Below, one piece after another: positions 34,445 through 45,582 of a DNA stretch of 64,000 bases. Numbering within the stretch: position 1 is the stretch's first letter; the number at the start of each line of letters is the position of its first letter. The stretch covers positions 1-64,000 of the forward strand of contig JAQWEL010000001.1 in NCBI GenBank assembly GCA_028704945.1, given 5' to 3'. The notes below the pieces were generated by a model. That model was not told where the DNA came from, did no database searches, and was given only the letters and a program-made list of their open reading frames with translations. Made by a program: the position numbers and the translations under genes. This DNA comes from Patescibacteria group bacterium (GTDB lineage Bacteria > Patescibacteriota > Patescibacteriia > Patescibacteriales > Patescibacteriaceae).

Positions 34445-36064
34445 TTATATACCTCTTGCCTCACTCTGGTCTTCGGGGCTAATCTTTTTATAAAAAAATC
34501 TGTTTTTAATAGACTGTAAAAAATTAAACAATTCTTCGGAGCCAAGCAAATAACAACTTAAAACATAAACAAATAAAGCTCCTAAGCCAGCTAAGCCACC
34601 CTGGGTTAATATTCCCAGCAAGGTATTTGTGTTTATCCAATGCTCAGCCATGATCTTAATAATTTGAGCGGCTGATGTTGCCGCCAAAGCAGCTAAAGAA
34701 AATTTAGCAACTGAAATAAAAATCCTCTTTTCATCAAGTGAGCCTATTTCTCTTCTTAAAATAATCCACAAAAAACCCATATTAAAAAAACTTGAAATAG
34801 AAAAAGCTAAGGCTAATCCGCTTACACCATACCAATGACCTAAAAACCAAGCGCCAACAATATCAATCGCAACTGAAAACAAGCCGACATAAAAAGGTGT
34901 TTTAGAATTATGTCTAGCGTAGAACACCCTTGTTAAAAGAGGAATAGTGGCTTGCGCGAAAAAAGACAGCGCAAACATAAATAAAGTATCCATTGTTAAA
35001 ATCGTATCCTGCCAATCAAAATGACCGCTACCCAAAGAGGCTCGAACCAATTGCGCTCTCAAAACAATAAACAAGGCTGAGGCAGGAATAATAAAAAACA
35101 TGGTTTGTCGCAATGTTCTAGAAAACTGCTCAATTAATTTTTTTCGATTAAAAGCATAAACTGATAGCGTCGGAAAAACAGCGATAGCGAAAGAGATGCC
35201 GAAAACTCCAACAGGAAAGGACTGCAAATTATTAGCTAAATTAAAAATAGTCAAACTTCCCCCGACTAAAACAGAAGCGATGGCGGTTGTTACCAAGAGA
35301 TCAAATTGGCTGATAGCTAAACTCATGGTTCTTGCTACCATCATTTTAAATAAATCTTGGACATTTTTATTTTTCAATTCAAAATATGGACGCCATCTAA
35401 AGCCCAACAAATAAATACTTGGGATTTGAATGGCAAAGTGGACAAATGAGCCGAGTACTACACCCCAAGCTAAACCCCGGACACCCATCTGAGGAACAAA
35501 ATAAAGCGCGCCGATAATAATGCCGATATTGTAAAAAATTGGTGACAATGAATAAACAAAAAATCTTTTAGCTGACTGTAGCATTCCTCCTAAGACCGCT
35601 GACATTCCTAAAAGTAGCGGCGACAAAAACATTACTCGACTTAATTGTGCGGTCAAAGCAATCTTTTCCGGGCTAAATCCAGGCGTAATCAATTTAATAA
35701 TTTGTGGAGCAAAAACAACGCCAATAATGCCGACTATTAATAGTCCACCAAATAAAATATTAATAATGTTTGAAGCTAACCGCCAAGCTTCGCTGTTGTT
35801 TTCTTTTTTCTCTTCTTTAAAAAGATGCGAAAACAAAGGAATAAAGCCGGCTGATAACGCGCCCAAAACAAGTAAATTATACAACAAATCAGGCACCCTA
35901 AAAGCGGCGTAATAAACATCTAACTCATCACCCGCTCCAAATTGACCAGCCAAAATACGATCTCTAAGTAAGCCCAACAAACGGCTAATAAACGAAGAAA
36001 AACCGACTAATAAAGCGGCTATAGCAACGCTATCAATTTTTTTTGCAAATAATCTTTTAATCAT
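34445..36064 (-). CDS. murJ: Lipid II flippase MurJ
   Basis: Fourteen-helix MOP-superfamily flippase moving lipid II across the membrane for peptidoglycan. N-terminal FSSFISRLLGLLRDRILAGQFG and the repeated GLAW/VLGSF region match MurJ/MviN. 539 residues. It is 7 bp upstream of holA and likely in one unit. Confidence 0.93.
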   Translation of the reverse strand: MIKRLFAKKIDSVAIAALLVGFSSFISRLLGLLRDRILAGQFGAGDELDVYYAAFRVPDLLYNLLVLGALSAGFIPLFSHLFKEEKKENNSEAWRLASNIINILFGGLLIVGIIGVVFAPQIIKLITPGFSPEKIALTAQLSRVMFLSPLLLGMSAVLGGMLQSAKRFFVYSLSPIFYNIGIIIGALYFVPQMGVRGLAWGVVLGSFVHFAIQIPSIYLLGFRWRPYFELKNKNVQDLFKMMVARTMSLAISQFDLLVTTAIASVLVGGSLTIFNLANNLQSFPVGVFGISFAIAVFPTLSVYAFNRKKLIEQFSRTLRQTMFFIIPASALFIVLRAQLVRASLGSGHFDWQDTILTMDTLFMFALSFFAQATIPLLTRVFYARHNSKTPFYVGLFSVAIDIVGAWFLGHWYGVSGLALAFSISSFFNMGFLWIILRREIGSLDEKRIFISVAKFSLAALAATSAAQIIKIMAEHWINTNTLLGILTQGGLAGLGALFVYVLSCYLLGSEELFNFLQSIKNRFFYKKISPEDQSEARGI

Positions 36065-36108: not shown

Positions 36109-37527
36109 TTAAAGTAAGCTGGCTATGGTTGGCAAAAAATCTTTTAAATCATGCTTCTGCCCATTTTCAAACAAGCTTTTCCCAGACAAATCAGCTTGGG
36201 CCAAGATTGCTTCTGTCGGATTACAATTAGGTTTTTTTTCAGGTAAATCAGTTATCATATTTATAACTGCTTCCGCCTGACCATAAGTGCCGGCTATAAT
36301 CAAAGAATCGTTTGCGCCTAAAACCTCTTTGGCTATTTTACCAACCAAATTATCAGCCTTTTTAACAGCCTCGATTGTTTTGTTGACATCACCATCGTTG
36401 GCGGCAATCGCTGGACCATTCAAAACAGCTACTATAAAATCAAAACCAACTTTTAATCCTTCGATAATTTCGGCCTCAATAACTTCGTCGGCCGGAACTA
36501 CATTATTGTCGTCAACCGTCAATCCAGCTAAGCTGATTTGGCAATCGGATAAATCAATATTTTTAAAATTTAAAATCGATAAACTATCAACTATCAAAAG
36601 ATTCTTTTTGCCGGCCGCTGCGGTTGCGCGAAATAAATTTATACTTTTAGCTTGGTTAATCAGCCCGCTTAAATTAAGCTCGGCTACATCATATAATGAT
36701 AAAAATTTTAAACCAACAGGACATTTTTTCCGATCAAATCTGTCAAAATCTTCACTTCCAAAAGTTTCGGCTAACTCTGACAATCTGCCGGCAGCTGAAA
36801 AAAACATCACCGCATCGCCATCCTCAATAACCGCCAAAGGATTGCCGTATTGGTCAACCTGAATAGTAGGAGGAAGGTCGGTAAAAGCTACAGTAATCAT
36901 CTCTCCCAAATTAGTATGCTCTTCTCCTAAACCACGAGTTAAAGCTTCATAGTATTTTTCAGTCTTAGCAAAATCTCTTGTTTGATCAAGCGCATAATTA
37001 GCGCCGGCTAAAGTTGCCAACTTTACTCCTCCGATTAAAAAACTATCAAATTCTTTAGGATCAATCTTGCTATCGACAATCAAATGAATAAAAACATTCT
37101 CAATATTTTTTCTAATCATCAATTCAATCACAGTCTTCGCTGCCATAATAATCGATCCGGATTCATCAGGAGCAATAATTAAATGAAGTTTAGTATTTTT
37201 CTTTTTAGCTACTTTCAAAAAATCAATTAATTTTAAATTTTTATCAAAAACACCATCCTCTATATTTAATTTAAGAAATTCTTCTTGGCTTAAAGTTTTT
37301 TTTGAATTAAAAATATAATCAAAAGCAGCTACTGGAATATCTTCCAGATTACTTTGATTATCGGCTAAACCAAACAAAATACTTGGATAATCTGATTTAA
37401 GAGAAACCAAATTAGGCGTATTTGAAGAAGACCAAGCATTTGCTGGGCCGTCTTCGGCTACGCCATAGCCGTTAATTAACAATAAAACGGTTGATTTCTT
37501 TTTGATTTTCGTTGTCTTTAAAGGCAT
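36109..37527 (-). CDS. Phosphoglycerate-mutase-like protein (iPGM fold), catalytic residues lost
   Basis: Aligns by eye along most of the 2,3-BPG-independent mutase GpmI (LLLINGYGVAEDGPANAW, TPNLVSLKSDYPSILFGL, LHLIIAPDESGSI, FIHLIVDS, GANYALDQTRDFAKTEKYYE). Key positions are gone: Asp of the first metal motif (LDGWG) is Asn, the phospho-Ser motif GNSEVGH is absent (DNQSNLED), the Arg of GRYYAMDRD is replaced, and the DHGN metal motif reads TYGQ. I infer a pseudoenzyme or a changed function. ATG at 37527 is used; the frame extends to a TTG. It follows the enolase-like gene. Confidence 0.7.
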   Translation of the reverse strand: MPLKTTKIKKKSTVLLLINGYGVAEDGPANAWSSSNTPNLVSLKSDYPSILFGLADNQSNLEDIPVAAFDYIFNSKKTLSQEEFLKLNIEDGVFDKNLKLIDFLKVAKKKNTKLHLIIAPDESGSIIMAAKTVIELMIRKNIENVFIHLIVDSKIDPKEFDSFLIGGVKLATLAGANYALDQTRDFAKTEKYYEALTRGLGEEHTNLGEMITVAFTDLPPTIQVDQYGNPLAVIEDGDAVMFFSAAGRLSELAETFGSEDFDRFDRKKCPVGLKFLSLYDVAELNLSGLINQAKSINLFRATAAAGKKNLLIVDSLSILNFKNIDLSDCQISLAGLTVDDNNVVPADEVIEAEIIEGLKVGFDFIVAVLNGPAIAANDGDVNKTIEAVKKADNLVGKIAKEVLGANDSLIIAGTYGQAEAVINMITDLPEKKPNCNPTEAILAQADLSGKSLFENGQKHDLKDFLPTIASLL

Positions 37528-37596
37528 ATAATACCCTATGAATATAACAAAAACCTTAAGAAAAATCAACCGTTGCTAATAAATATTTGTTTTAAA

Positions 37597-38760
37597 TTAA
37601 ATAAAATCAGCCAGCTCACGTTCTATTTCAATTAACCGATTATATTTGCTAACTCTCTCTGATCTGGCTAATGAACCAAATTTAACCCCGTCAAACGGTA
37701 AGGCAACCGATAAATCTGCCAAAAAATCATCTTCGGTTTCATTAATAGCTGAAGCTAAAATCAAGCCATAATTATATTTTTTGACTTGTTTAACAAATTT
37801 AAGCAAGTCAAAAAAACCAGCAAATTGATTTAATTTTATAACCACGGTGTTGCCTATCTTTTGATCAATAAATTTTTGAGCTAAGTCATGATTGCTTATT
37901 TGGCTTGAGGCTAAATAAAAAATATCACGAAATTCAGCGCTAATTTTTTTCCAAGATTCTTTATCACTGATGGCCGCCAAATCTTCTAAATAGCCGATAT
38001 TATAGCGTTTAAACCATTCTTGATAAACTCCGGCTAAATCAGTTGGACCTAAATAATGCCTATCCAATTGGAATAGATATTTTTTAGTTTCCGTGTCAAA
38101 AAGATGATGAGCGCCAATGCTTACTCCCAAAAAAATGTCATTTTCAAAATTGAAACCGGCCTTTAAAGCCGCTGTTATGATAAATTCAAAGGCATTAATA
38201 CTTGAAACTAAGTCTGGAGCATAGCCACCGAATAAGCCGATGTCGGTATCAAAACCTTTTTTAAAAAGAAGTTCACCGAGAATATTTCTAGTTTTAACAA
38301 ATTTATCCAAAAACTCTTTCAATGAGCTTTTATTATGGATTGACGGTATCAGCAAATATTCATCAAAATCCAAATTGGTATCTCCATAAAGCCCGCCATT
38401 AAAAACATTCAATAGGGGTTTGGGCATTTTGGGTTCAAAATCATAATAATCAGATAAAATTCTGTATAACGGTTTACTATCTAAGATAGCCAAACATTTG
38501 GCAGCCACAATATTTGCTAAAATCGCGCTCTTATTACCGATTACTTTATTTTCTTGCCATAAAACGCTTGCCGCCTCAATAAAATCGTCTTCAATATTAG
38601 CTCCTTCAAATTCTTTTATAACCAAATCATTTTCTTTTATTTCCAAATCTAAGTCAGCCTTAATTATCTTGTCATCAGACAAATAAAAAGACAGCCGGTT
38701 TGTTTCAAAGCCAGAACCGCTAAAAACTTTACTGATAATTGCCCGTTTAATATAGGCCAT
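37597..38760 (-). CDS. Enolase-like protein, catalytic residues largely lost
   Basis: Full-length enolase fold by pattern: NVFNGGLYGDTNLDFDEYLL, GGYAPDLVSSINAFEFIITA, TVVIKLNQFAGFFDLLKFVK, SLARSERVSKYNRLIEIERE. Relative to yeast enolase, Glu211 (GDEGG) is Phe in GLFGG, metal Asp246 is Ser in GVSIGAH, metal Asp320 is lost (ASSQ), and the His-Arg-Ser of SHRSGETED reads ASAINETED. Glu168, Glu295, Lys345 and Lys396 positions seem kept. Probably not an active enolase. It sits between pgk and the mutase-like gene. Confidence 0.75.
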   Translation of the reverse strand: MAYIKRAIISKVFSGSGFETNRLSFYLSDDKIIKADLDLEIKENDLVIKEFEGANIEDDFIEAASVLWQENKVIGNKSAILANIVAAKCLAILDSKPLYRILSDYYDFEPKMPKPLLNVFNGGLYGDTNLDFDEYLLIPSIHNKSSLKEFLDKFVKTRNILGELLFKKGFDTDIGLFGGYAPDLVSSINAFEFIITAALKAGFNFENDIFLGVSIGAHHLFDTETKKYLFQLDRHYLGPTDLAGVYQEWFKRYNIGYLEDLAAISDKESWKKISAEFRDIFYLASSQISNHDLAQKFIDQKIGNTVVIKLNQFAGFFDLLKFVKQVKKYNYGLILASAINETEDDFLADLSVALPFDGVKFGSLARSERVSKYNRLIEIERELADFI

Positions 38761-38765
38761 AAAAA

Positions 38766-39950
38766 TTATTTGACTAAACCAACTAAGCCAGGCATTTTTT
38801 CTCCACCCAAAAATGACAATGAGGCTCCGCCACCAGTTGAAACCCAGTCAATATCATCAATCATCTTAGTCATCTTTAAAGCTTCAATCGTTTCACCGCC
38901 ACCGACAACGCCAAACGCTCTACCCTTAGATTGTATAGCGACTGCTCGCCCGACAAATAATGTCCCTTGCCTTAATCTTTCGTTTTCAAACAAACCCATC
39001 GGACCATTCCAAATTAAAGTCTTGGCTTTTTTTAAGTAGGTCGCAAACAATTTCATAGTTTCTGGACCGATATCATAAATATATTCATTACGTCCGACTT
39101 CATTAATTTTTTTGACAGCAATTTGTTTAAAATTCTTATCAGACACGATTACGTCAATCGGTAAAATTATTTTCTTGTTATCAATTTTTTTAGCTAATCT
39201 AATATTTTGCGGACTAGCCAACGACTTGCCAATGGGAAATTTTCTGGCTGCTAAAAAATTATTAGCAATAGCGCCACCTACTAAAATATAATCGGCCCTT
39301 TTAGAAAGTTTTCTTAAAAGCGTAACTTTGGTATCTATTTTGGATCCACCCATAACAGCAACAAAAGGCTTGGTGGGATAAACTATTTTTTGTAAATTGC
39401 TAACCTCTTCTTCAACCAAGCTGCCGGCATAACTTGGCAAATATCGCTTAACCGCCGCAACTGAAGCATGGCTTCGATGAGACACGGCGAACGCATTATT
39501 AATATAAATATCGCCCAGAGTGGCTAACTGTTTAGCGAATTTAGTATCGTTTTTAGTCTCACCATAGTAAAAACGAATATTTTCTAAAAGCAAAATCTGG
39601 CCTTTTTTCAAAGCTTTTACTTCATTTTTTAGTTTCTCTGACCCAATCAAGCTGTCAGAGAAGACAACTTTTTTCTTTAATAGCTTGCCAAGGCTGATTG
39701 CTAAGGGTTTAGTTGTAAAAGCCTCTTTATCTTTAATCTTGCCAGTCGAACTTATTTTTGGATCGCCTAAGTGAGTCATTAATATTACCGTCGCTCCATG
39801 CTTGATTAAAAATTTAATCATCGGAACATTGGCGACAATTTTGAATTCTTCCTTAATTTTACCTTTATTCATCGGCACATTAAAATCAACTCGCATTAAA
39901 ATTTTTTTACCATCAAACGAATTAATTTGATTAATTGTTTTTATTTTCAT
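38766..39950 (-). CDS. pgk: Phosphoglycerate kinase
   Basis: Glycolytic kinase making ATP from 1,3-bisphosphoglycerate. Family motifs RVDFNVPM, LLLENIRFYYGE, NAFAVSHRSHAS, VMGGSKIDTK, IWNGPMGLFE and WVSTGGGASLSFLGG are in order. The usual Asp in NDAF is Asn, HLGRP is HLGDP, and GGGDT is GGGET, so it is divergent but looks functional. 394 residues. First gene of the pgk, enolase-like, mutase-like run. Confidence 0.93.
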   Translation of the reverse strand: MKIKTINQINSFDGKKILMRVDFNVPMNKGKIKEEFKIVANVPMIKFLIKHGATVILMTHLGDPKISSTGKIKDKEAFTTKPLAISLGKLLKKKVVFSDSLIGSEKLKNEVKALKKGQILLLENIRFYYGETKNDTKFAKQLATLGDIYINNAFAVSHRSHASVAAVKRYLPSYAGSLVEEEVSNLQKIVYPTKPFVAVMGGSKIDTKVTLLRKLSKRADYILVGGAIANNFLAARKFPIGKSLASPQNIRLAKKIDNKKIILPIDVIVSDKNFKQIAVKKINEVGRNEYIYDIGPETMKLFATYLKKAKTLIWNGPMGLFENERLRQGTLFVGRAVAIQSKGRAFGVVGGGETIEALKMTKMIDDIDWVSTGGGASLSFLGGEKMPGLVGLVK

Positions 39951-39982: not shown

Positions 39983-40005
39983 ACACAATTTTTACAAACA
40001 AAAAA

Positions 40006-40028
40006 ACACGACCGTAAACCAGTCGTGT
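40006..40028 (-). terminator. Terminator after the HtrA-like gene
   Basis: ACACGAC (40006-40012) with GTCGTGT (40022-40028) and a T7 run on the minus strand. Confidence 0.85.
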
Positions 40029-40051
40029 CTTAATATTAAATTTCTAAAAAA

Positions 40052-41149
40052 TTATCTTAAGTACTCCCCTAAGGTGAGCTCAACTGTCGTGTCTTTATTA
40101 TCTCGTCTGTACTTGATATAAATCTTATCACCTGATTTATAACTGGCAATCACTTCAGCTAAATCATTAGTTTCATTAAGTTCGATATCGTCAATTGATA
40201 AAATCAAGTCCCCTTCTTTCAAGCCAATTGAATCGGCTGGGCTATCAGTTATTACGGCCGGCTCCTTATCTTTTTTTGATAAAATAACACCTTTTCTCGG
40301 ATGAGCAGAGATTTCTTTGCTTATATTTTTATAATTAACCCCCAAAAATGCTCGCTTAATCAGATTTTCTTTTAATAAAGAATTTTGAGCGCTTAACATC
40401 AGGTCGGTTGAGATTGATTGCCCGTCGTTATTAATCAAAGCGACAATGCTACCGTCTAAATTAACTGCTGCCAACAAACTTTTGTCACCTATTGGAATAT
40501 TTAAATTACGTGAAGCATTTTCGCTTAAATATACGCCACCTGTCTTATTCGTATCCTGAAGATAATTGACTGATATTTTTGGACCGAGACCATAGCTAAC
40601 AACCATTTCGCCTGGTTTTAAATTTTTGGCTGCGGTCAAATTAGCAACATTCCAACCACTAACATTATCAAGCTTTAAAAACCAGAAACCACTTACGCCA
40701 TCAAAAATTGCTTTACTTAAATTACGAATTTTTCTGTCCGCGCCAGCCACAAGATAAGTATTCTTGATGGTTTCTTCGGAAACTTTATTATCCTTAACAT
40801 CAAACCTAACAATTAACCAGCCGTCGTTAGTAACGACTACGCCTTGTCCGGCTAAATCTGCCTGATTATAAATTTGTTCGCCCGGCTTCTTCTTATAGAC
40901 ACCGACTAAATTACTTTTAGCATTAGTGATTAAATCAGGTAATCTATCGGATTGTTCAACTACTATTTTTTTAGCATCACGAATAATCGTGTTATTATTG
41001 GTATAAGCGTTAGGCACAACACTGCTTGAATTTAAGTAGCCTTTAATGCCATAAAAAAAGAACCAACCGCCGAAAAAACCGCTTAAAACACCAGTAACCA
41101 TAACAATAATTAAATACTTCATAATTTTGGGTCGATTTTTATCTTCCAT
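40052..41149 (-). CDS. HtrA/Deg-like PDZ protein, protease residues lost
   Basis: One N-terminal membrane helix (about residues 10-35), a trypsin-like domain and a C-terminal PDZ domain (RAFLGVNYKNISKEI, DSPADSIGLKEGDLILSIDD). The catalytic triad is missing: the region GQGVVVTNDGWLIVRFDV has no His, SGFWFLKLDN lacks the Asp, and the GNSGG motif reads GDKSLLAAVNLDG. Likely a pseudoprotease or chaperone-like sensor. ATG at 41149 follows the upstream stop by 4 bp. Confidence 0.75.
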   Translation of the reverse strand: MEDKNRPKIMKYLIIVMVTGVLSGFFGGWFFFYGIKGYLNSSSVVPNAYTNNNTIIRDAKKIVVEQSDRLPDLITNAKSNLVGVYKKKPGEQIYNQADLAGQGVVVTNDGWLIVRFDVKDNKVSEETIKNTYLVAGADRKIRNLSKAIFDGVSGFWFLKLDNVSGWNVANLTAAKNLKPGEMVVSYGLGPKISVNYLQDTNKTGGVYLSENASRNLNIPIGDKSLLAAVNLDGSIVALINNDGQSISTDLMLSAQNSLLKENLIKRAFLGVNYKNISKEISAHPRKGVILSKKDKEPAVITDSPADSIGLKEGDLILSIDDIELNETNDLAEVIASYKSGDKIYIKYRRDNKDTTVELTLGEYLR

Positions 41150-41153
41150 AAAA

Positions 41154-41927
41154 TTAAAGCCAAACAGCTGTGGCAAACAATGTTATCCAGCCGATTAATA
41201 TAACCGCTGAATAAGATTTTAATTTAAATTTATTAAACTCTTTATTTAAAATATCGGAAACAATCATAATGACAAAATAATAAGAGCTAGCTAAAATCGC
41301 TCCCAACATATTGTAGTCATTGGGTAACAATATTAAAACAAAAAAAAGTTCAAGTAAAACTAACCAGGCGATAAATAAAAATGGCAACTCTTTTTTAAGA
41401 GAAAATTTCGACACCCAAAGACTTTGATAAACAACAACCAAAAGTATAATAGCTATTGGTAAAAAAACTTGCCAAACTCTTAAACTCAATAATGATTTTA
41501 AACCTAAGGCGCTTGAGCCAGCCAAAAAAACAATAACCGTATTAGCATAATAAGACAGGCTTTCTAAGCTAAATGAAGTGTAACGCGATTGTTGATTAAA
41601 ATAGAAAAAAACAAAGCGCCAGTAAAGATAGGTGGCAATCAAAAGTATTGAAATAATCGTTTGTAAAAGCCAAGGTTTATCAATAATGGTCACATAAGTT
41701 GTGACTGAAACAGCCAAGATAGCTGGCATAATAGCAAAATTATACCACTCGCGACCATCATTCTTTTTACAAATAATCAAAGCAGCTAAAAAATTAGCTA
41801 TCAAAGCAAAACCAAGCACCAACCAAAGAAGCGTGGCGGGAAACTTAACCAAAGCTTCAAGCGCTAAACCGATTGAAACCGTGATGGTAAAAGGTATGAA
41901 ATTAGCGATAGAATTTTTTATTTTCAT
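41154..41927 (-). CDS. Hypothetical membrane protein, about seven helices
   Basis: 257 residues, seven or eight hydrophobic helices, short loops. No family recognised. It lies 2 bp after the beta-propeller gene and 4 bp before the HtrA-like gene, so the three form one unit and may work together at the cell envelope. Confidence 0.7.
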   Translation of the reverse strand: MKIKNSIANFIPFTITVSIGLALEALVKFPATLLWLVLGFALIANFLAALIICKKNDGREWYNFAIMPAILAVSVTTYVTIIDKPWLLQTIISILLIATYLYWRFVFFYFNQQSRYTSFSLESLSYYANTVIVFLAGSSALGLKSLLSLRVWQVFLPIAIILLVVVYQSLWVSKFSLKKELPFLFIAWLVLLELFFVLILLPNDYNMLGAILASSYYFVIMIVSDILNKEFNKFKLKSYSAVILIGWITLFATAVWL

Positions 41928-41929
41928 AA

Positions 41930-44185
41930 TTACTTAACCATCGGCGCTGACATTGGTACTTCTATCTGATAGTCAGGTGAGTTATTTTCAAACTCAATCG
42001 TCTTTATTTCTTGCCAGTCCTTTAAACTGTTAACTTTAAAATAATTTCCGGAAACAGTATACAAGTTATCTCCGATGTAAAAAGATCTTTTAACAGTATT
42101 GTTATAACCATAGCCCCACCAATCTTCTCGATAGGCAGTTTTATCGTTATCATGACTAATTTTACCAGCAACTTTTAAGCCATCTTTTTTATCAACGCTA
42201 ATAGCATAAGCGCCAACAAACTCGGGCTTAGTCCCCCAATCAGAATTCCATCGTTGGGTTAAGTAAGCAGGAATAACTAATAATTTTTTATCGAAAGAAA
42301 ATAAAACTGCTTTATGATCATTTAGCGCAGCTGAATCACTGCCTAATCCGCCTAACTCAAGCTGGCTTATTTCTTTCGGATTGTTAGTATCAGCCACATC
42401 GAACAAAGAAATTTTTAAGCCCTTCACCACTGCCCTGCCCTTATCGTTTTCTTCAGTTTGACGGCCAATACCAATTAAAGTAGTTTCGTCATAGGGATGC
42501 AAATACTGAGAAAAACCCGGTATTTTTAATTCACCCAACACAATCGGTTTTTTAGGATTGGACAAATCAATAGCAAACAATGGATCAGTTTTTTCAAAGG
42601 TAACTAAGTATACTCTCTTGCCCATAAATCTAGCCGCATAGATACTTTCATTTTTAGCTAAGCCAGTTAAAGCGCCGACTTGTTTCAAATCATTGCCAAG
42701 CACAAAAACATTAGCATAAGAGGCCTTGTCTTTTTCATCAACCAACTCCGACCAGCTCCTATTTTTAGTTGTGGCCAACCTAAAATAATCACCTGACTCA
42801 TCCATGGAAAATTGATTCAAAACTGTACCAGCGACTTCACCCTGAGCTTTATACTCTATTTTACCATTATCATAAGCGATTTTATGGATGATAGTTTTTT
42901 CCATTTCTTCGGCAATGCTTTTATATTTAATTTTAGCTGCCGCTTTAATCTGATTTTCTGTCTTTTGTCTTTCGTCATCGCTTAAACTGGCTAAATATTT
43001 TTCAACAATATTCATTATTTTTTGCAATTTCTCGGCATCACTTAAAACTAATTTATCAGCTGCGTCAATCTTAGTTAAACGATCTTTGTCTTTGGCTGAT
43101 AATTTATCTTTTAATAAATCAATCGTTAATCTGGCTGTTAAGTCTGATTCATTAAAATATTTAGTGTAAGTCAGATATAAATTTTTCTCAGAAGCATATA
43201 AATTTTGAGCATTTGGCATAACGTAAACCTCTGTTTTAATTGGGGTTGAATTATCCTTAATATTGATAGCGGCTAAAGTAACCAAGTTGGCGCTATCATA
43301 TTGGGTGTCAAAATAATAAATGTTAGGTAATTTAAAACGATTGGTTTCTTTATCTGAAGAAATCATTTTGCCGTCCTCTAAAATCTTAGGTAAGGCGTAA
43401 TCATTATTCCAATAATAATTCCAATTGTTGGTAAAGAAATATAAATAATCACCTACCACACGTGAATCAGCATAATTGCCCTCGAAATCTAAGTCTCTAA
43501 CTTCCTTAGGATTTACTTTATCAGTCAAATCAAAAACTTTTACAAAAGTATAGCTGTTATGTCGACGAAAAGTTTTGTAAATTGGCATATTATAAATAGC
43601 TTGGTCATAACCGAAAACAACTAAATATTTGCCATTAATATAAATTTCTTGCGGCTGATTTTTAAATTTAATATTAGAAATAACTTTAGCATCTGTCGCT
43701 GGATAAGCTTTGATAATAGATAAATTTTTATTATTTACCACATAAGCATATTCCCCGTCTGTTTTTACAATATCAGCTTCGTCAACTCCCTCAACCTGGA
43801 CATTGGTTTTGGAATAATCTGGCGTGGCTGCGATTGCTTCATCTTTAGCGGCCATCGGAGCAGAACTATTACTAACAGCCCCTCTGCCGGTAGCGGTCGA
43901 ACTGTCCATGGCTAAACTTTTTTCCATGCGACTACCATAAAAAACTTGGGAATTGCTATTTTCATCCAAAAAATCTTTAAATTCCTGCAAAGATGTAAAT
44001 TTCTTTACTTTATTCGTTAAAACTTTGTTTTTTTCTTGATTAACAGTAGTTTTAGGCGCGGCTGGTTTAGGAGTAACTGTTTGTTTAGCTTTTGTTTTTA
44101 TTAAAGCTGCTAAACCGATGCTCGGTAAGACAATTAAAACCGCTACGATGATAAAAATTTTTAGCCAATTTTTTTGATGATACAT
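41930..44185 (-). CDS. Secreted beta-propeller domain protein (PF09826-like)
   Basis: 751 residues with one N-terminal membrane anchor or signal (KIFIIVAVLIVLPSIGLAAL) and a low-complexity linker. The hallmark YSKTNVQVEGVDEADIVKTD marks the beta-propeller family, and repeated blade-like segments (YAYVVNNKNLSIIK, KYLVVFGYD, GDYLYFFTN) follow. A helical Lys/Asp-rich insertion lies around 360-430. Outer-surface protein of unknown partner. Confidence 0.85.
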   Translation of the reverse strand: MYHQKNWLKIFIIVAVLIVLPSIGLAALIKTKAKQTVTPKPAAPKTTVNQEKNKVLTNKVKKFTSLQEFKDFLDENSNSQVFYGSRMEKSLAMDSSTATGRGAVSNSSAPMAAKDEAIAATPDYSKTNVQVEGVDEADIVKTDGEYAYVVNNKNLSIIKAYPATDAKVISNIKFKNQPQEIYINGKYLVVFGYDQAIYNMPIYKTFRRHNSYTFVKVFDLTDKVNPKEVRDLDFEGNYADSRVVGDYLYFFTNNWNYYWNNDYALPKILEDGKMISSDKETNRFKLPNIYYFDTQYDSANLVTLAAINIKDNSTPIKTEVYVMPNAQNLYASEKNLYLTYTKYFNESDLTARLTIDLLKDKLSAKDKDRLTKIDAADKLVLSDAEKLQKIMNIVEKYLASLSDDERQKTENQIKAAAKIKYKSIAEEMEKTIIHKIAYDNGKIEYKAQGEVAGTVLNQFSMDESGDYFRLATTKNRSWSELVDEKDKASYANVFVLGNDLKQVGALTGLAKNESIYAARFMGKRVYLVTFEKTDPLFAIDLSNPKKPIVLGELKIPGFSQYLHPYDETTLIGIGRQTEENDKGRAVVKGLKISLFDVADTNNPKEISQLELGGLGSDSAALNDHKAVLFSFDKKLLVIPAYLTQRWNSDWGTKPEFVGAYAISVDKKDGLKVAGKISHDNDKTAYREDWWGYGYNNTVKRSFYIGDNLYTVSGNYFKVNSLKDWQEIKTIEFENNSPDYQIEVPMSAPMVK

Positions 44186-44194
44186 ATTTTTAAT

Positions 44195-44524
44195 TTAAAA
44201 AATACCATTATTTTCAAAAGGTAACCATTCTTCTTCGCTATTGCCCCAACGATAAGCTAAAAGCTCATGCGTCTTCTCGGTATCGCTATAAACATATTCA
44301 ATTTCAACCTCTGAGCCTATTCTATTCGAATATGCGGTTTTACGGTCAATTACTTTCGGTTTAGTGATAAATTCGAGTTTTACCAAACCCAAGTGACTAT
44401 CAAAAACAATATATTCAACTTCTGTGCCACCATGTTCTTCTGGCAAAAAATAATTGTCGGCTTCTTCAACTTCAAAATCTGCTCGAATTTTATCAAGTAA
44501 ATCTTTCCAACGCTCAACGTGCAT
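44195..44524 (-). CDS. Hypothetical small acidic protein
   Basis: 109 residues, acidic, soluble (WKDLLDKIRADFEVEEADNY start). No family recognised, but its compact alpha/beta pattern and its place between pilT and the propeller gene support a true gene. It ends 9 bp before the propeller gene start. Confidence 0.7.
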   Translation of the reverse strand: MHVERWKDLLDKIRADFEVEEADNYFLPEEHGGTEVEYIVFDSHLGLVKLEFITKPKVIDRKTAYSNRIGSEVEIEYVYSDTEKTHELLAYRWGNSEEEWLPFENNGIF

Positions 44525-44538
44525 ATTTTTATTACATT

Positions 44539-45582
44539 TTAATTATAAATCGCTTTGGTTTCTAAATTACGCTTATAACGGCTGACTGTCAACTCATCGA
44601 TGTAGCCTTGTTCATAAAGTAAATCAATGGATTTATTCATGTCAATCATCCCCTGCTGGTAGCTGGTTTTGATGACGGTATTAAGTTGAGCGACTTTATT
44701 TTCACGAATTAAATTAGATACAGCTTGATTATTAATCATAACCTCTCTGGCCGCAACCTGCCCACCGCCTATTTTAGGCAACAATTCCTGGGAAATAACC
44801 GCTCTCAGGGTTAGTGAAAACTGAGTTAAAACTTGTTGACGGCGTTGAGCCGGAAAAGAGTCGATAATACGGGCAACTGATTCGGCCGCGCTGTTAGTAT
44901 GAAGTGTTGATAAAACTAAATGTCCTGTTTCAGCCGCGGTTAAGGCAGCGCTAATGGTTTCCATATCTCTCATCTCGCCAATCATGATTACATTAGGATC
45001 TTGGCGTAAAATAGCTTTTAAAGCACCCTTAAAGCTAGGCGTATCTGTACCTATCTCACGTTGTTCAATAATACTATATTTATCCTTAAAAACATACTCA
45101 ATCGGATCTTCAATAGTAATAATATGGCTTCTTTTAGAATTGTTAATTAAATCAATCATGGTGGCAATAGTGGTAGATTTACCTACGCCTGATGGACCAG
45201 TAATTAAGATTAAACCGTCTTTTAATCGAGTCAAATTACACATAGTTTCAGAAAAACCAGCTTCTTCCGGAGTTGGGACAACCATTTTTATTTGACGAGC
45301 AGCCAAGCCGACTCTTCTTTGCTGAAGATGCAGGTTAATTCTAAAGCGTTCTTCAAAAATATCGAGTGAAAAGTCTAATTCTTTTTCTTTGGCAAAATAT
45401 TCTTGCTGTTCAGGGGTCAAAATGGTCTTAATTGAGGTGCGTAAAAAACTGTCAGCAATAATATCCTCTGAAATCGGCACTAATTCCCCGTCTATTCTTA
45501 AAGACGGTCTACTTCCGCCAATTAAATGCAGGTCAGAAGCATGACGATCTATAGCTAATTGAAAATATTCTTTAAATTCCAT
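44539..45582 (-). CDS. pilT: Type IV pilus retraction ATPase PilT
   Basis: Hexameric ATPase that depolymerises type IV pili. Walker A GPSGVGKSTT, Asp box TIEDPIEYVF, Walker B region DPNVIMIGEMRD and His box GHLVLSTLHTNSA are complete, and the C-terminal AREVMINNQAV fits PilT. 347 residues. The prepilin at 5.5-6.7 kb is one candidate substrate; no pilB or pilC is in the window. Confidence 0.95.
   Translation of the reverse strand: MEFKEYFQLAIDRHASDLHLIGGSRPSLRIDGELVPISEDIIADSFLRTSIKTILTPEQQEYFAKEKELDFSLDIFEERFRINLHLQQRRVGLAARQIKMVVPTPEEAGFSETMCNLTRLKDGLILITGPSGVGKSTTIATMIDLINNSKRSHIITIEDPIEYVFKDKYSIIEQREIGTDTPSFKGALKAILRQDPNVIMIGEMRDMETISAALTAAETGHLVLSTLHTNSAAESVARIIDSFPAQRRQQVLTQFSLTLRAVISQELLPKIGGGQVAAREVMINNQAVSNLIRENKVAQLNTVIKTSYQQGMIDMNKSIDLLYEQGYIDELTVSRYKRNLETKAIYN

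Follow-up and report, generated by a model that had tools for sequence, protein, structure and literature searches.

Fungal pseudonucleases of the Dis3/RNase II family (PMC8097288) offer a described parallel to the proteins considered here in that they are likewise a well-kept fold that lost catalysis more than once, while they differ in fold, organism and role (RNA binding). Closer to the present pathway, Jaffe et al. 2020 (PMC7304191) reported several shallow Parcubacteria clades without phosphoglycerate mutase, a gene perhaps too divergent there for the detection threshold; unlike the present analysis, that paper, in the sections available, contains no active-site analysis, duplication or pseudoenzyme. 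In the freely searchable full-text literature we found no description of a pseudoenzyme of the cofactor-independent phosphoglycerate mutase (iPGM, or GpmI), nor of a tandem iPGM pair of the kind described below.

The window, a stretch of 64,000 nucleotides from a Patescibacteria group bacterium (contig JAQWEL010000001.1), carries on its reverse strand, at 36109..37527, an uninterrupted 472-codon frame that begins with ATG at 37527 and has a Shine-Dalgarno-like AGGG (37534..37537, same strand) six bases 5' of that start. Judged from its sequence, the gene is a relative of iPGM that is predicted to lack the catalytic machinery. The 472 aa protein matches the Pfam domains iPGM_N (61 bits, cut-off 27) and Metalloenzyme (29.8 bits, cut-off 24.3), and scores 76.8 bits against the GpmI equivalog TIGR01307, far below the cut-off of 330.65. 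The frame contains neither stops nor frameshifts, and none of its family matches was reported to have an inside stop. A single-sequence search of a public genome collection returned only three distant ordinary iPGMs. An AlphaFold2 model built with 47 relatives as input reached a mean pLDDT of 85.5 (an earlier model from 10 sequences was poor, at 68.8), and its best Foldseek matches are iPGMs, the top PDB match being 1ejj (E=3e-34); with a whole-chain TM-score of just 0.45, it is uncertain how the two domains are placed relative to each other.

The active site was compared by aligning the protein to the Bacillus stearothermophilus iPGM (1EJJ) at 15 positions, which we take to be the catalytic and substrate residues of that enzyme and whose residue letters were verified at each position. 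Only one or two of the 15 are kept, depending on the alignment. None of the seven metal and serine residues (Mn ligands D12, D403, H407, D444, H445 and H462, and nucleophile S62) survives, the substitutions being D12N, S62A, D403A, H407N, D444T, H445Y and H462P, and at most two of the eight substrate residues (H123, R153, D154, R185, R191, R261, R264, K336) remain. The GNSEVGH motif is unrecognisable and ADHGN reads GTYGQ. The protein is thus like GpmI in its two-domain fold, domain order and overall sequence, and unlike it in lacking the seven metal and serine residues and nearly all substrate residues. A first-pass annotation of this DNA had described a gene with the GpmI-type outline and without GNSEVGH and DHGN, and both domain matches and the empty metal site agree with that description.

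On the same strand the order is phosphoglycerate kinase (PGK, 38766..39950), an enolase-like gene (37597..38760), the iPGM-like gene and a MurJ-type lipid flippase-like gene (34445..36064, named from its sequence appearance), separated by gaps of 5, 69 and 44 bases. PGK has all checked active-site residues. The enolase-like protein (387 aa; Enolase_C 152 bits) retains 4 of 12 catalytic sites, scores 201.6 bits against the enolase equivalog TIGR01060 (cut-off 300) and falls short of the Mg-ligand and catalytic residues of enolase. The locus therefore holds two adjoining pseudoenzymes beside an intact PGK, as the annotation had proposed. Between PGK and the PDZ gene, a terminator-like hairpin on the reverse strand at 40003..40031 (12 pairs and a T tail) suggests that PGK begins its own transcription unit; it comes from a consensus scan only, in which the total hairpin count was not above that of shuffled sequences. 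Upstream, at 40052-45582, a gene order is kept across the order: a PDZ protein, a membrane-like protein, a beta-propeller protein (PF09826, 511 bits), a 109-aa protein of no known family and a T2SSE-type ATPase.

Elsewhere in the same genome, a normal enolase (385 bits) lies on another contig, and the likely phosphoglycerate mutase gene GpmA is split over two contig ends, C7:92718-93095 and C12:58922-59215 (185.8 and 109.1 bits), which suggests that these contigs join. C9:133291 was considered as GpmA and discarded, at 49.5 bits, under the GpmA cut-off. Both pseudoenzymes are thus backed up, provided that the split GpmA has been joined correctly.

By profile search, 102 of the 111 genomes of the GTDB order carry relatives. 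Inspection of about 75 loci showed the usual arrangement across families to be PGK-eno-iPGM_A-iPGM_B, which would represent the ancestral cluster of the order. The second gene, copy B, carries before its last helix an insertion with a consensus of about GKTIGLxDAPxxDLSLLxPxG. This C-terminal insertion is present in live (catalytically intact) and dead copies B alike, is absent from copy A and from stand-alone iPGMs, and persists whole or as a remnant in the dead copies, the window gene among them, which identifies them as copy B independently of active site and profile score. In the window the C-terminal stretch with this remnant (DLSGKSLFENGQKHDLKDFLPTIASLL) lies at approximately 36109..36225 on the reverse strand; the insertion is shortened and the ~15 residues with which relatives finish (MTGKSLI end) are missing. 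Copy B of families f4, f14, f20 and others occupies the same place behind eno and copy A, carries the same insertion and, unlike the window protein, is catalytically intact (15/15, one 14/15). Long branches meet in the tree of all copies, and it is accordingly unsure where within copy B the window gene belongs. The simpler idea that the cluster's only iPGM had decayed was replaced, once sister families had been examined, by loss within a tandem pair.

The active site of copy A is intact wherever the gene is complete, and that of copy B is intact in 12 families. Dead copies B occur in sampled members of f1 (the window's family), f3 (G015), f6 (G033), f14 (G049), f15 and f19, giving a tally of 41 in six families, 32 short and 9 long; it excludes a copy A of f4 (G022) with an alignment gap, miscalled as dead and long and removed by hand, and some A/B labels of live copies behind it may be off. 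With the exception of this gapped copy A, the other complete copies have at least 14 of the 15 sites. The routes to inactivity differ. In f1 the substrate pocket was lost first (G003 keeps all seven metal and serine sites and has lost four substrate sites), and in f6 the metal site went first (G033 has lost S62, H407, D444, H445 and H462 and keeps most substrate sites). The entire transferase domain is deleted in f14, f15, f19 and part of f1, where genera g2 and g5 have lost it whole and g4 retains some metal residues. Because of these routes, and because f14 holds both dead and live copies B, at least four or five separate losses are favoured if catalysis is never regained. The figure depends on inactivation being irreversible, on the differing routes and on nested cases, and no tree proves it; the poorly resolved PGK tree needs just two label changes if reversion from dead to live is allowed.

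Across the dead copies, the majority share at S62, D444 and H462 drops to 22-24%, and the D, L and S of the insertion stay at 95, 100 and 90%. The short proteins of f15, f19 and G049 (about 280-365 aa) share the locus, the insertion and the dead metal site with the window protein, and differ from it in lacking the transferase domain and in being far better conserved. Two further proteins deserve mention. A long, otherwise intact copy B in f12 (G043, L128 7184-8773) carries Leu in place of R153, which may mark a first step towards inactivation. In another order of the class, G158 encodes an iPGM-derived protein of 311 aa that lacks the transferase domain (L197 7818-8753), adjoins neither PGK nor enolase and has an apparently intact metal and serine site (GNSESGH, HTGN, ADHGN); it may be a stand-alone phosphatase.

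Within the window's GTDB family the gene is present in 12 of 13 genomes; wherever the contig permits a view, it is flanked by PGK (or enolase) on one side and by its constant neighbour, the MurJ-type gene, on the other. Family identity to the window genes is 21-27% for the iPGM-like protein, 51-59% for the MurJ-type protein and 37-58% for PGK. PGK is shortened in two genomes of genus g4, to 353 aa in G008 (L043 3623-4684) and 338 aa in G005 (L044 7725-8741), and both retain the checked active-site residues. G012, G077 and G078 have no copy B, which is hence dispensable. Nearly all genomes with a dead copy B have another phosphoglycerate mutase, namely the tandem copy A in f3, f6, f19 and G049, and GpmA or a stand-alone iPGM in f1 and f15. 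GpmA is above cut-off in all f1 genomes except G010, where neither GpmA nor an intact iPGM was found (L051; reported 95% complete), and where either the assembly missed a mutase gene or the step is absent.

The neighbouring enolase appears to share the fate of copy B. Catalytic residues have disappeared from the operon enolase of f1 genera g1-g3 and of roughly half of the f15 genomes read, and such genomes generally encode a second enolase elsewhere (360-393 bits). In f15 (L142, L165, L170, L145, L137 and related loci), single-residue losses are seen beside the dead copy B, with a canonical enolase elsewhere; examples are K341 to E in G087 and G088, and D245N, D316S and H369Q in G096. Enolases with at most 10 of 12 sites occur in 16 of ~39 genomes with a dead copy B versus 0 of ~33 with a live one (Fisher p about 1e-5, from hand-made counts on related, non-independent genomes, so that p overstates the case). 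The neighbouring enolase is intact in f3, f6, f19, G049 and f1 genus g5, and the locus of genus g4 has no enolase gene. The annotation had suggested scanning CPR genomes for the same trio; a dead copy B beside PGK does recur, but the enolase pseudoenzyme is not universal.

Dead copies in f15, f19 and f1 genera g3 and g5 are under purifying selection. Nei-Gojobori dN/dS for seven pairs of dead short copies from f15 and f19 is 0.03-0.10 and 0.14, respectively, compared with 0.03-0.17 for the neighbouring PGK and enolase genes of the same pairs; in g3 and g5 it is 0.13-0.20. The dead copies keep open frames and stay beside eno and PGK. Survival of the pair only as frameshifted pseudogenes, the outcome that would have spoken against the annotation, is not what we found, as sampled relatives have open frames at the same place.

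The window's genus is the fastest-evolving and least constrained member, and here we must consider whether the gene is a dying remnant under relaxed decay, its frame still open. The branches are long (1.8 and 2.2 changes per site), and the sole pair available (G000, the window's genome, and G001; 27% protein identity) is too diverged for dN/dS. Differences at the three codon positions are nearly equal (0.56/0.51/0.60, versus 0.33/0.21/0.57 in the downstream MurJ-like gene), which argues that amino-acid constraint is weak; the shortened C-terminus and absence of the gene from the sister genome G012 speak for decay as well. However, there is indirect evidence of constraint: neutral simulation predicts ~25 stops at one substitution per site where the 472 codons contain no stop or frameshift, and 71% of changed core positions stay hydrophobic versus 59% +/- 4% in neutral simulation at equal identity. 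This excess amounts to 2.6-2.8 sd for the window and G001 proteins, a figure that alignment bias could inflate. Considering also the strong selection on dead copies of other families, we regard such decay as rather unlikely. It is similarly hard, and in our view harder, to credit that the frame is kept only to carry translation into the MurJ-like gene and so avoid polarity. In f1 the gene abuts or overlaps that neighbour, as a coupling spacer would, and polarity could explain the open frame there, but most f1 genera keep full length, and the low dN/dS in f15 is left unexplained because the next gene in most f15 loci read is on the opposite strand.

Retention of the fold, together with D12 and D403 in some short dead copies, would be compatible with a changed enzyme, having a new catalytic site or acting on another substrate with another metal arrangement. 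We consider this improbable, since the dead copies have no new conserved polar cluster beyond structural Gly, Pro and Asn and the copy-B insertion, and the window protein has none of the seven metal and serine residues. Least credible, and very improbable, is a sensor that binds 3-phosphoglycerate without turnover and regulates PGK or the operon: most substrate-binding residues are kept in some long dead copies (G033), but the window protein keeps almost none, the whole transferase domain is missing in the 32 short dead copies, and a sensor is unlikely with the substrate pocket gone.

Copy B is a recurrent pseudoenzyme whose role is probably structural or regulatory. More specifically, the chances seem to us about equal that it is a kept non-catalytic protein, most likely binding PGK and the enolase or enolase-like protein and tuning lower glycolysis. 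We infer the partnership with PGK and enolase from gene order and shared fate only, and likewise infer that copy B binds any partner and that its role carries over to the window's genus. Against this reading count the strong divergence in that genus (27% identity between G000 and G001), the weak constraint there, the shortened insertion of the window protein and the dispensability of copy B. The history we propose would begin with the second of two tandem iPGM genes in the ancestral cluster. Once other mutases covered catalysis (in the window's family GpmA; elsewhere, copy A or GpmA), this gene would have lost its metal site and phosphoserine and been retained as a folded protein. It would then serve as a binding subunit for proteins of the same message (PGK, enolase or enolase-like), through the phosphatase-fold core and the C-terminal insertion, which on the best reading are its constrained parts, so that lower glycolysis would be organised or tuned. 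Possible, though we lean towards doubt, is a dual role of copy B order-wide, in which non-catalytic partnership with PGK and enolase predates catalytic loss and would explain both its retention through independent inactivations and why, in some lineages, the operon enolase became non-catalytic too. The co-evolved scaffold or regulatory complex of the first-pass annotation thus gains from the repeated loss and retention of copy B and from enolase being degraded only with a dead copy B; the complex itself stays a proposal.

Small bacterial genomes, below 1-2 Mb, are not expected to retain idle genes. In this order one of two phosphoglycerate mutases has been inactivated again and again, in some cases along with the neighbouring enolase, yet the products were kept, and in one large family selection on the dead copy matches that on PGK in strength. 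Dead copies can pass for a functional mutase or enolase when pathways are reconstructed from these genomes, and their retention points to a non-catalytic layer in lower glycolysis.
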